Assembly: GCA_028287785.1 (NCBI GenBank)
Contig: JAQBOZ010000018.1
Coordinates: 62,001 to 126,000 of the forward strand
Direction of reading: 5' to 3'
DNA from: Chlorobiota bacterium
GTDB taxonomy: Bacteria; Bacteroidota; Ignavibacteria; OLB7
Length of the DNA stretch: 64,000 bases
Of the stretch, positions 48,582 to 52,466 are shown in pieces. The translations under genes were made by a program, and so were the position numbers. Positions within the stretch are counted from its first letter, which is position 1; every line of letters starts with the position of its first letter. Below the pieces are notes generated by a model. That model saw only the letters and a program-made list of their open reading frames with translations, ran no database searches and was not told where the DNA came from.

Positions 48582-51500
48582 TTGGCCCGATCCCCCTTCA
48601 ACGTCACGCTGATCTGCATGGAGCCATCACGTCCCGCCGCCGTCGCGGAGATCGTGGCGCGGATGAACGCGGAGACGGATCTTCCGCTGCGGGTGATTCT
48701 CCGGGCGCGGGAATCGGCCGAGGCCGCCATTGCGGAACGGCACGGGGAGATCGCGAGCGATCTTGCGGGGAGCGATCTTGTCATCATCTCCCACGTGCTG
48801 ATGGATGAGGAGTCGACCCCGCTCGAACGCCTGATCCGCGACCATGTCCCACCGCACGCCACCATCCTCGGCATCTCCTCGGCCGCCCCCCTGATGCGGC
48901 TTACACGCGTGGGACGCTTCTCGATGAAACGGCGCCCGGACGCCGACGAGGAATCGCCCGACGCCCCTCCATCCGGCGCGATGCGGCTGAAAGCGCTCCT
49001 GGGAAGGATCGTCGGCGGACGGGATATCACCCCGTATCTCAAGGAGCTGATGATCGCCGCGCCCCGGCTTCTGCGCCTGATCCCCGGCCGGATGCGCGAT
49101 CTTCGCAGCTATATCGAAAGCTATCTCTACTTCGTCGAATGCTCCGAGCGGAACATCCGGTCGATGCTCCTGATGCTCGCCGATCGCTATCACGCCCCCA
49201 CCTCCGGCGCGCTCTCCGGTCGCTACGATCCCCCGGTGGTCTATCCTTCCGAGGGAATTCATCATCCCGATGCGCCCGCCCCGTTCCCCTCCCGTCGGGA
49301 ATATCTGGCCTGGTACGGCGCCCACGGCCATTCCGCCGACCGGCCGCTGATTGGGCTGATCCTGCTTCGGGGGGATGTGCTGATGGGGGAGCATGCCGCG
49401 ATCGACGCAACCATCCGCGCGTTCGAATCGCGGGGGATCGGGGTGATCGCGGCGTTCGGCAGCTCGTTCGATTACCGGACCGCGGTGGAGAGCCTTCTGC
49501 TGGATGATGACGGCGGCGGCATCGGCGCGCTGGTCTCCCTCACGGCGTTTCCACTGGTGGGGGGGCATGTCGGAAGCGATATCGCCGGCGCGACCGGCGC
49601 GCTGGAACGGTACGATCTCCCCTACTTCTCCCCCATCCCCCTCATCTTTCAGACGGTGGATGAGTGGCGCGTCTCGGAGTACGGCATCGGCCCGATGCAG
49701 ACGGCGCTTCATGTGGCGCTCCCGGAGCTTGAGGGGGCAATCGAGCCGATGGTGACAAGCGGCGTGGCGATCTCCGACCGGGGAAAGACGAAAACCGGCA
49801 TCGACGAGCGGACCGCGAAGCTGGTCAGGCGCGTGGAGCGATGGCTGGCGCTGCGGCGGAAGCACAATGCCGAGAAGCTGATCGCCATCACCATCTTCTC
49901 CTTCCCTCCCGGCAAGGGGGCCGTGGGGACCGCGGCCTATCTGGATGTGTTCCGAAGCCTCCATAACACGCTCGCCAGGATGAAGGAGGATGGCTATGCC
50001 GTCGATCTCCCCGCATCGCCGGAGGAGATCATCGAACGGATCGTGACGGGTGATGACAAGCTGGCGCCGATGTCGCTTTCGGAGCTCAACGTGGCGGCCC
50101 GGCTGACGGTACAGGAGTATACCGCGCTGGCGCCGGAATCGAAACGGGTCGCCGCGATGTGGGGCCCTCCCCCCGGCTCCCTCAACTCGGACGGCCGCGA
50201 CCTGCTGATCTACGGGTTCCGCTGCGGGAACATCTTCATCGGCGTGCAGCCGTCGTTCGGCTACGAGGGCGATCCGATGCGGCTGCTGTTCGCGAAGGGG
50301 GCCACGCCGCATCACGGATTTCTGGCCTACTATACCTGGATAGAACATGTCTTCCGCGCTGACGCGCATCTTCATTTCGGCACCCACGGAGCGCTGGAGT
50401 TCATGCCGGGGAAGCAGGTGGGGCTGGACGCCGCAAGCTGGCCCGATATCCTGATCGGCGATCTTCCCAATCTTTATTTCTACGCCATCAACAACCCGAG
50501 CGAGGGGACCATCGCCAAGCGGCGATCGCTGGCGGCGCTGGTCGGCTATCAGACGCCTCCTCTGGAAAACGCCGGCCTGTACCGCGAGCTTGGCGATATG
50601 AAGGAGATGGTCCACGCCTACCAGTCGGCCGAGCCGGGCGATCCACGCCGCGCGCTGACCGTCGAGGCGCTCGCGGAAAAAGTGGGGCAGCTCGATCTGG
50701 ACAAGGATGTCCCCCCTCCAGCGGCGGATGACGACCACTCCGGAAACGATCGGTTCGTGGCGCGCCTGCATGCCCACCTTATCGAGCTGGAATCGCGCCT
50801 GATCCCGACCGGCCTGCATATCGCCGGGGAGCAGCCATCCCCCGCCGGCCTGGCCGATCTTCTTCTTGCAATCTCCGAGTACGACCGACCCGAGGCCGGG
50901 GTACGCGCGCTGACCGATATCATCGCCGGGCGCGCCGGAGAGAATTACGGCGAGCTTTACCGCCGCGCCGATGCCGGGGACCGCGAGGCGATGGGGCGAT
51001 ATCTGACGACGCGGGACACCGCGCTGGAGGGAATCACAGCGCTGCTGATCGACAATGGCGAGGGGGATCGTGAACGGATAGACCGCGCCGCGCGACTGGT
51101 GGCGGGCCGGTCGGGCCTGCCGGCCAGGAACGCACCTCTCCGCGCCACGATGGGATATCTGCTGGCGATCGCCGCCAGGGCCTCCGAGCATCGGGAGTTC
51201 GACGCGCTGCTCCGTGGGATGTCGGGAGGATATATCACCGCGGCCATCGGCGGCGACCCGGTCCGCAACCCGGAAGTGCTCCCGTCCGGACGGAACATCC
51301 ACTCGCTCGATCCTGCGGCAATCCCATCGCCGATGGCGCTCCGCAACGGCAAGCGGGTGGTGGAGATGATGCTTCGGAAGAACCTTGAGGAGACCGGCCA
51401 GCTCCCCAGAAGCATCGGCATGGTCCTCTGGGGCCTTGATACGATCAAGACGCAGGGGGAGGCGATCGCGCAGGTCTTCGCGCTGATCGGCATCGAGCCG

Positions 51501-52466
51501 GAGCCGAACTCGATCGGCCGCGTCTCGCGACTCAGGGTCATCCCGCTGGAGAAGCTCGGCCGCCCCAGAATCGACGTGACGATCCAGGCCAGCGGCATCT
51601 TCCGCGACATCTTCGGCCTTCAGATCGAGATCCTCGACGACGCCATCCGGCTGGCCGCGTCGCTGGATGAGCCGGAGGAGATGAACTTCATCCGGGGCCG
51701 CTGCCGGGAGATGAGCGAGCGGCTGGGGCTTACCGGCGATGAGGCCACCACGCGCATCTTCTCCAACGCGGCAGGCGCCTACGGCACCAATGTGGACCAC
51801 ACGGTGGCGATGTCGGCATGGCGGACGGCGGACGATCTGGCGGAGGTCTTCACGCGGAGAAAATCGTTCGCGTATGGGCGGAGCTTCGGATCGCGGGAAT
51901 CGCGGAGGATCTTCGAGGAGCTTGCCTCGGGAATCGACACCACGTTTCAGAACCTGGATTCCAGCGAAGTGGGGATCACCGACGTGGACCACTACTTCGA
52001 ATATCTCGGCGGCTTCACCAACGTTGTGGAGCGTCGCAGCGGCAGGCGCCCCACCCCGCTGGTGGCGGACACCACGACCGCCCGCGGAAAGGTCAGAACG
52101 CTTGAGGCAACGATCCGCCTGGAGGTCCGCACCAAGCTCCTGAACCCGAAATGGTTCGAGGGGATGCTGGGCCACGGCTATCAGGGGGTGGAGGAGATTC
52201 GGAAGCGGCTTGATTACACCTTCGGGTTCAGCGCCACGGCCGGGGCCGTCGATCCGTGGGTTTATGAAGCAATCCACCGCACCTATGTGGCCGATGAGAC
52301 CGTGCGGCACCGCATGGAAGGGCTGAACATCCACGCGTATTCCGGGATGGTCCGCCGCCTGCTGGAGGCAAACGAGCGTGGATTCTGGACCCCCGCGGAG
52401 ACCATCGTCGAGGGGCTGCGCTCCGTCTGCGATGAGCTTGAAGATCGCCTGGAAGGGGTCGGCTGA
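48582..52466 (+). CDS. bchH: Magnesium chelatase subunit H-like protein (BchH type)
   Basis: 1294 residues, full BchH length. The start is a TTG (AGGAAACCAAC-TTG); the first internal ATG is Met13. The N-terminal ~165 residues correspond to the DUF3479 domain typical of BchH/ChlH rather than CobN. The CobN/Mg-chelatase body contains GTHGALEFMPGKQVG at 600-614, PDILIGDLPNLYFYAINNPSEGTIAKRR and TPPLENAGLYREL, the BchH wording, and the end LGHGYQGVEEIRKRL...FSATAGAVDPWVYE. BchH binds protoporphyrin IX for Mg insertion by BchI/BchD, neither of which is visible. It follows the hem genes on the opposite strand. A role in cobalamin-type chelation cannot be excluded. Confidence 0.9.
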   Translation: MARSPFNVTLICMEPSRPAAVAEIVARMNAETDLPLRVILRARESAEAAIAERHGEIASDLAGSDLVIISHVLMDEESTPLERLIRDHVPPHATILGISSAAPLMRLTRVGRFSMKRRPDADEESPDAPPSGAMRLKALLGRIVGGRDITPYLKELMIAAPRLLRLIPGRMRDLRSYIESYLYFVECSERNIRSMLLMLADRYHAPTSGALSGRYDPPVVYPSEGIHHPDAPAPFPSRREYLAWYGAHGHSADRPLIGLILLRGDVLMGEHAAIDATIRAFESRGIGVIAAFGSSFDYRTAVESLLLDDDGGGIGALVSLTAFPLVGGHVGSDIAGATGALERYDLPYFSPIPLIFQTVDEWRVSEYGIGPMQTALHVALPELEGAIEPMVTSGVAISDRGKTKTGIDERTAKLVRRVERWLALRRKHNAEKLIAITIFSFPPGKGAVGTAAYLDVFRSLHNTLARMKEDGYAVDLPASPEEIIERIVTGDDKLAPMSLSELNVAARLTVQEYTALAPESKRVAAMWGPPPGSLNSDGRDLLIYGFRCGNIFIGVQPSFGYEGDPMRLLFAKGATPHHGFLAYYTWIEHVFRADAHLHFGTHGALEFMPGKQVGLDAASWPDILIGDLPNLYFYAINNPSEGTIAKRRSLAALVGYQTPPLENAGLYRELGDMKEMVHAYQSAEPGDPRRALTVEALAEKVGQLDLDKDVPPPAADDDHSGNDRFVARLHAHLIELESRLIPTGLHIAGEQPSPAGLADLLLAISEYDRPEAGVRALTDIIAGRAGENYGELYRRADAGDREAMGRYLTTRDTALEGITALLIDNGEGDRERIDRAARLVAGRSGLPARNAPLRATMGYLLAIAARASEHREFDALLRGMSGGYITAAIGGDPVRNPEVLPSGRNIHSLDPAAIPSPMALRNGKRVVEMMLRKNLEETGQLPRSIGMVLWGLDTIKTQGEAIAQVFALIGIEPEPNSIGRVSRLRVIPLEKLGRPRIDVTIQASGIFRDIFGLQIEILDDAIRLAASLDEPEEMNFIRGRCREMSERLGLTGDEATTRIFSNAAGAYGTNVDHTVAMSAWRTADDLAEVFTRRKSFAYGRSFGSRESRRIFEELASGIDTTFQNLDSSEVGITDVDHYFEYLGGFTNVVERRSGRRPTPLVADTTTARGKVRTLEATIRLEVRTKLLNPKWFEGMLGHGYQGVEEIRKRLDYTFGFSATAGAVDPWVYEAIHRTYVADETVRHRMEGLNIHAYSGMVRRLLEANERGFWTPAETIVEGLRSVCDELEDRLEGVG

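Follow-up and report, generated by a model that had tools for sequence, protein, structure and literature searches.

The gene studied here lies in a stretch of 64,000 nucleotides (hereafter the window), positions 62,001 to 126,000 of contig JAQBOZ010000018.1 from a Chlorobiota bacterium of the class Ignavibacteria, and it encodes BchH, the large subunit of magnesium chelatase. The genome (G000) comprises 4.75 Mb in 37 contigs and is 95.02% complete. A sequence-only reading of the window had described a full-length BchH-type subunit with no chlorophyll genes nearby, and both parts of that description held. The protein has 1294 residues and a DUF3479 head, passes BchH models and fails the cut-offs of CobN models, and neither the window nor the 16 kb flanking it on each side yielded a chlorophyll gene. 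The sequences point to an intact BchH with its partner subunits, in a genome that apparently does not make chlorophyll; its branch of the family is a separate one, shared with other bacteria that likewise seem to produce none. The features of the gene and its product are as follows.

48571-48574, plus strand: AGGA, read from the sequence 7 bases ahead of the bchH TTG and probably its ribosome-binding site (predicted function).
48582-52466, plus strand: bchH, encoding the large subunit of magnesium chelatase (1294 aa, starting at TTG), matching TIGR02025, NF009140 and the sequence of the ChlH structure.
48603-49115, plus strand: DUF3479 (PF11965), the N-terminal head domain of BchH, residues 8-178 (Pfam, 64 bits, cut-off 27.4).
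49128-52400, plus strand: CobN-Mg_chel (PF02514), the body of BchH, residues 183-1273 (Pfam, 1160 bits).
50373-50504, plus strand: active-site stretch of BchH, HFGTHGALEFMPGK...NNPSE, residues 598-641, in which H602, E606 and E641 correspond to H621, E625 and E660 of Synechocystis ChlH.
51990-51992, plus strand: H1137 of BchH, in DVDHYFEYLGG, corresponding to H1174 of Synechocystis ChlH.

The open reading frame (ORF) is uninterrupted for 1294 codons from its TTG start, and the three motifs that had been quoted as BchH-specific are all present in the protein. Against the NCBIfam equivalog models, the protein scored 1425 bits with NF009140 (cut-off 1300) and 1384 bits with the BchH model TIGR02025 (cut-off 829), the latter being a weak criterion by itself as it was exceeded in three of five matching control genomes, archaea among the five. 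A third subunit H model, NF009942, was narrowly missed (1119 bits, cut-off 1166), and the protein fell under the own cut-off of every NCBIfam CobN model. Synechocystis ChlH (PDB 4zhj) aligned end to end with residues 7-1293 at 1034 bits, compared to 463 bits for the solved CobN and 367 bits for the solved HmuS. The GC content and third-position GC of bchH resemble those of neighboring genes, while a scan for promoters and terminators returned nothing beyond chance. Together, the ORF, domains, models and motifs identify bchH far beyond chance, and it is the only PF02514 gene in its genome.

In Synechocystis ChlH, residues H621, E625, E660 and H1174 are catalytic or channel residues (PMC13297055). 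By alignment these correspond to H602, E606, E641 and H1137 of the window protein, with the numbering verified on a cyanobacterial ChlH whose positions lag those of Synechocystis by two, and all four residues were kept in seven of seven members of the clade described below. The histidine at the H1174 position is absent from the proteobacterial and haloarchaeal CobN sequences in the alignment, which also have GKHGNLEW or GTHGSLEW in place of GTHGALEF. Judged by its sequence, the active site is of the magnesium chelatase type.

The sequence-only reading had also noted that bchI and bchD were missing. This was correct for the window and not for the genome, as the two genes are neighbors on a different contig, C2. 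A PF01078 profile search of the genome returned two genes, one of them ComM-like and the other a weak match on C2. The partner genes are:

C2:155320-156393, minus strand: bchI (TIGR02030, 505 bits, cut-off 467).
C2:153319-155304, minus strand: bchD, adjoining bchI (TIGR02031, 510 bits, cut-off 499.6).

The encoded BchI has kept its Walker A (GHRGTGKS) and Walker B motifs, and BchD has Walker A and the full set of the metal-ion-dependent adhesion site (MIDAS), namely DASGS, GGGTPL and TDG. An orphan BchH was thereby ruled out: bchH is not an orphan and is merely unlinked to bchI and bchD. A type IX secretion system sorting tail and BshC are encoded beside the bchI-bchD locus and suggest an origin in the Bacteroidota-Chlorobiota group.

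Genome-wide absences reported here rest on family profile searches. The profile PF00148, which covers BchN, BchB, BchY and BchZ, had zero matches in G000 and in three genomes with related BchH proteins (G022, G079 and G197), whereas the cyanobacterial control was positive. BchM was not above its cut-off in G000, where the best match (46 bits, cut-off 158.9) did not surpass those of generic methyltransferases; exactly one of 14 controls exceeded the cut-off of this model. As far as BchN/B/Y/Z and BchM are concerned, these results reject the suggestion of the sequence-only reading that the organism is a phototroph with dispersed bch genes. The missing chlorophyll neighbors are weak evidence alone, as 22 of 79 BchH loci in a phototroph-rich reference set also had no BchN, BchB, BchL or BchM in their flanks. 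Phototrophy in the Bacteroidota-Chlorobiota group is seemingly confined to the Chlorobi class (PMC9342728).

Corrin-ring methylases were not found in the genome, whose only two TP_methylase genes (L107 at C1:97367 and L109 at C6:105516) are both RsmI-type, and therefore it cannot build a corrin ring. The second of these RsmI-type proteins, of 713 aa, is extended at both ends, by an acidic stretch at the N-terminus and by a long, repetitive, Gly/Arg-rich one at the C-terminus. Within the window, a gene at 29957-30364 on the minus strand encodes a 135-aa protein that, by its sequence, is the small, B12-binding subunit of an enzyme of the methylmalonyl-CoA mutase type. Because this subunit is present and the corrin-ring methylases are absent, the organism appears to use B12 and probably imports it. 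The cobalt insertion proposed in the sequence-only reading is accordingly not supported, given the lack of a corrin ring and the magnesium chelatase type of the active site. With regard to the porphyrin substrate, the ferrochelatase gene hemH lies on C2 adjoining genes for protoporphyrinogen oxidase (TIGR00562, 285 bits), hemB and hemL. The adjacency of the oxidase and hemH means that the substrate branch point exists, and protoporphyrin IX should be available. The presence of hemH also ruled out BchH as a stand-in for a lacking ferrochelatase.

Among named genome contigs, the top match to the protein was from a Planctomycetota metagenome-assembled genome (47% identity), ahead of the phototroph groups. 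Within its own class, BchH was above cut-off in three of 391 genomes: G000 itself, G022 and G079. The latter two have a bchI-bchD-bchH operon beside cytochrome b and Rieske genes and no other bch gene. Their BchD proteins are short (473 aa in G022) and align to the family over the C-terminal half only (L094, L096), such that the I-type AAA+ module appears to have been lost or to have strongly diverged. Among the 392 genomes of the planctomycete's phylum, four full-length matches were prominent (41-48% identity), of which those in G548, G428 and G396 were examined in their flanks only. The three genes are in a row in G428, bchD-bchH is at a contig end in G396, and G197 (the genome of locus L005) has bchI-bchD on one contig and bchH on another. 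In G548, bchH has no bch neighbor on its contig. Overall, six genomes carry BchH relatives (two class mates and four Planctomycetota), and five of them also had bchI and/or bchD.

Several more distant chelatase homologues were encountered in these searches. Two Planctomycetota genomes, G430 and G585 (L184, L185), have a cassette that encodes a TonB receptor, a FecBCD-type ABC transporter, a protein resembling CobN and a ChlI-ChlD fusion. At the H1174 site, both CobN-like proteins have GCCxYF, and they make up a separate clade adjacent to CobN. In the class mate G271, a 1457-aa HmuS-like protein (L144:9384-13754) of a different chelatase branch is encoded beside TonB-receptor and ExbB-like genes. 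Two records filed as phage (MT837301.1 and OQ572414.1) contain a CobN/BchH-like coding sequence with 30-33% identity, and the 7-kb one of these may be mislabeled bacterial DNA.

A maximum-likelihood tree was built with five CobN sequences as the outgroup. The window protein and those of G197, G022 and G079 formed one clade (support 100/98), and the phototroph BchH/ChlH sequences grouped together (96/93). When three planctomycete and two CobN-like proteins were added, the clade had seven members (98/97) and the phototroph group was retained (93/90). Firm placement inside CobN had been named beforehand as an outcome that would tell against the BchH assignment; the window protein instead grouped with BchH/ChlH against CobN at 100/100. 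Trees constrained to unite the clade with Chlorobi and Chloroflexi or with Proteobacteria were rejected (p 0.009 and 0.003, respectively), whereas a constraint joining it to cyanobacterial ChlH was not (approximately unbiased (AU) test, p 0.195). Joining to Chlorobi BchH was rejected very strongly, for the window protein alone (p ~1e-33) and for G022/G079 (p 3e-46), and these rejections ruled out a Chlorobi remnant. From these sequences, it is firm that the seven BchH proteins fall outside the lineages of Chlorobi, Chloroflexi and Proteobacteria. That they are sister to all sampled phototroph BchH/ChlH is suggested by the best tree only, in a sample without Heliobacteria, Acidobacteriota and Gemmatimonadota.

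The flanks of bchH contain haem and signaling genes, of which two are listed for context:

43819-45141, minus strand: hemA, upstream gene of the haem cluster hemACDE, divergent from bchH.
52792-56109, plus strand: PAS/GAF hybrid histidine kinase, the next gene downstream of bchH after a 325-base gap, with an unproven link to it.

Beside hemA, hemC and hemE were identified, and hemD by weaker matches; a ccsA-like gene, rodA and one unknown gene lie between the haem cluster and bchH. The same-strand genes downstream of bchH, to approximately 62.9 kb, resemble RsbR/RsbT-type regulators and hybrid kinases. From 56367 to 62877 they make up a stressosome-like block that comprises STAS (its C-terminus similar to RsbR/YtvA), ATPases of the RsbT-like and anti-sigma kinds, a phosphatase resembling RsbX, and hybrid histidine kinases. 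In the planctomycete G548, too, bchH is followed by a PAS kinase, two cases being too few to carry meaning.

Comparison to the same-genus genome G001 showed that bchH and the signaling genes occupy a segment of ~16 kb (48100-64000). It is bordered by the unknown gene at 47374 and by a gene resembling trmH, two neighbors that in G001 lie only ~1.2 kb apart, with one short predicted ORF between them. G001 has kept bchI (L138:7905-8936; TIGR02030, 513 bits) and bchD (L138:8979-10931; TIGR02031, 519 bits) in the syntenic place. Either bchH was gained in G000 or it was lost in G001, and the retention of bchI and bchD in G001 favors a loss, or an assembly gap, in that genome. A contaminating contig is an unlikely source of bchH, as the hem cluster and the bchI-bchD locus are both syntenic in G001 and the GC content is typical.

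The window protein resembles phototroph BchH/ChlH (TIGR02025; PDB 4zhj) in its full-length domain order with a DUF3479 head, its catalytic residues, its BchI and BchD partners and, as its sequence suggests, its likely reaction, the insertion of Mg2+ into protoporphyrin IX. It differs in belonging to a separate clade, with ~40% full-length identity to cyanobacterial proteins and roughly 36-44% to those of other phototrophs, and in a genome with neither BchNB/BchYZ homologues nor BchM. With CobN, the large subunit of the aerobic cobaltochelatase, it shares the PF02514 superfamily body, but not the active-site signature, a score above any CobN cut-off or a corrin pathway in the genome. The haem de-chelatase HmuS is of the same superfamily, and has the HFGTHG motif and the domain V histidine; however, the window protein is in a different clade, has AAA+ partners and has no hmu operon (PMC12583661). 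Most sequences of the chelatase superfamily are not assignable to a function (PMC12583661). The available portion of Antonov 2022 (PMC9227772) covers non-phototrophs in which ChlI and ChlD occur without a large subunit, proposed as early stages. Those pairs are similar to the present case in the co-occurrence of I and D in non-phototrophs without chlorophyll and B12 pathways, but here BchH is also present, and the combination of H, I and D without a chlorophyll pathway is not in the stage table of that portion. Likewise, the portions available of PMC7842958, PMC9227772 and PMC10156173, which use CobN to root BchH or tabulate combinations of chelatase genes, mention no such clade. Our search of the literature, mostly outside subscription journals, found no report of a BchH clade in non-phototrophs.

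Based on these data, we consider it probable (roughly 0.7) that G000 encodes a working H-I-D chelatase that would insert Mg2+ into protoporphyrin IX for a non-chlorophyll purpose. The enzyme's identity is strongly indicated by sequence, and from it we infer the activity of the complex, magnesium as its metal and a use for its product. In characterized magnesium chelatases, an ATP-driven ring of BchI and BchD, with the MIDAS arm of BchD on BchH, pushes Mg2+ into protoporphyrin IX (PMC13297055), and every named part of this mechanism is present in the G000 sequence. BchH would thus bind protoporphyrin IX delivered by the haem pathway and hold it near E641, the MIDAS arm of BchD would dock on BchH, and BchI and BchD, as an AAA+ ring plus integrin-type arm, would spend ATP driving Mg2+ into the ring to yield Mg-protoporphyrin IX. 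Because BchM and BchNB/BchYZ were not found, this compound, or a derivative made by unknown enzymes, probably serves some other end, for example as a signal, sensor pigment, cofactor or safe porphyrin store.

The sequence-only reading had also raised a remnant of phototrophy. As a leftover of Chlorobi this was rejected, and no decay was seen; a remnant from deep time is conceivable. In this account, a phototrophic or bch-acquiring ancestor lost what comes after the chelatase step, and H, I and D stayed on in a secondary role or by chance. The patchy distribution in the class, the bchI and bchD of G001 without a detected bchH, and a root beside cyanobacterial ChlH, which the AU test did not reject, are all consistent with it. 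We nonetheless consider it unlikely, as seven diverged proteins have preserved full length and all catalytic residues, H, I and D recur together in unrelated phyla, the operons contain I, D and H only, and descent from Chlorobi BchH was rejected. A scaffold of BchH, BchI and BchD that inserts another metal (Co, Ni or Zn) is a more remote prospect. CobN is homologous, ChlI and ChlD have been proposed as small subunits of a cobalt chelatase (PMC9227772), a B12-binding mutase subunit is encoded in the window and the sequence leaves room for insertion of a metal other than magnesium into protoporphyrin. Against this are the lack of corrin methylases, the position of the protein outside the CobN clade, its failure to reach any CobN cut-off and its possession of the histidine wanting in the aligned CobN sequences.

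A haem de-chelatase running in reverse, like the HmuS of Bacteroidota, is very improbable. That homologue is from the same broad group, it too has a histidine in the domain V motif, and the class mate G271 has its HmuS-like gene in a TonB-receptor setting. However, in the tree HmuS falls with CobN, at the end of a very long branch, and the window protein is on the BchH side, with a score far lower to HmuS than to ChlH. Furthermore, no uptake operon is near bchH (a TonB receptor, HmuY and transport genes were not among the surrounding genes), and the paired BchI and BchD fit metal insertion. It is equally hard to credit an ordinary phototroph whose remaining genes were lost in assembly gaps. 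The 37 contigs and incomplete assembly allow for gaps, but BchN/B, BchY/Z and BchM would all need to fall in them, and these are also missing in G022 (100% complete) and G079 (93%).

Several points weigh against a working chelatase with a non-chlorophyll role. The trait is rare, in only three of the 391 class genomes, and no bchH was found in G001, a sister species rated 100% complete, where the system was either lost or incompletely assembled. The absence of later chlorophyll genes concerns BchN/B/Y/Z and BchM, in searches that did not extend to reaction centers, BchE, AcsF or light-dependent POR, and G000 is 95% complete. No neighboring gene is common to the clade members that would point to the user of the product.

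The working H-I-D chelatase remains our preferred explanation, and it suggests a magnesium-porphyrin role outside photosynthesis. A further proposal, that the lineage split before phototroph BchH/ChlH and never served chlorophyll, is doubtful at present. If true, it would mean that Mg-protoporphyrin biochemistry predates or parallels photosynthesis, with a living non-photosynthetic end use. The Granick hypothesis holds that pathways evolved stepwise and that their intermediates were once end products. Should the clade truly lie outside all phototroph BchH/ChlH, it would serve as a near outgroup with which the origin of chlorophyll could be dated and rooted, and would put Granick's idea directly to the test. 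The H-I-D set of this genome lends itself well to testing for magnesium porphyrins outside photosynthesis. The conservation of such a set in bacteria that apparently have no chlorophyll pathway indicates that Mg-porphyrins may have other biological uses, and shows where to look for the product.

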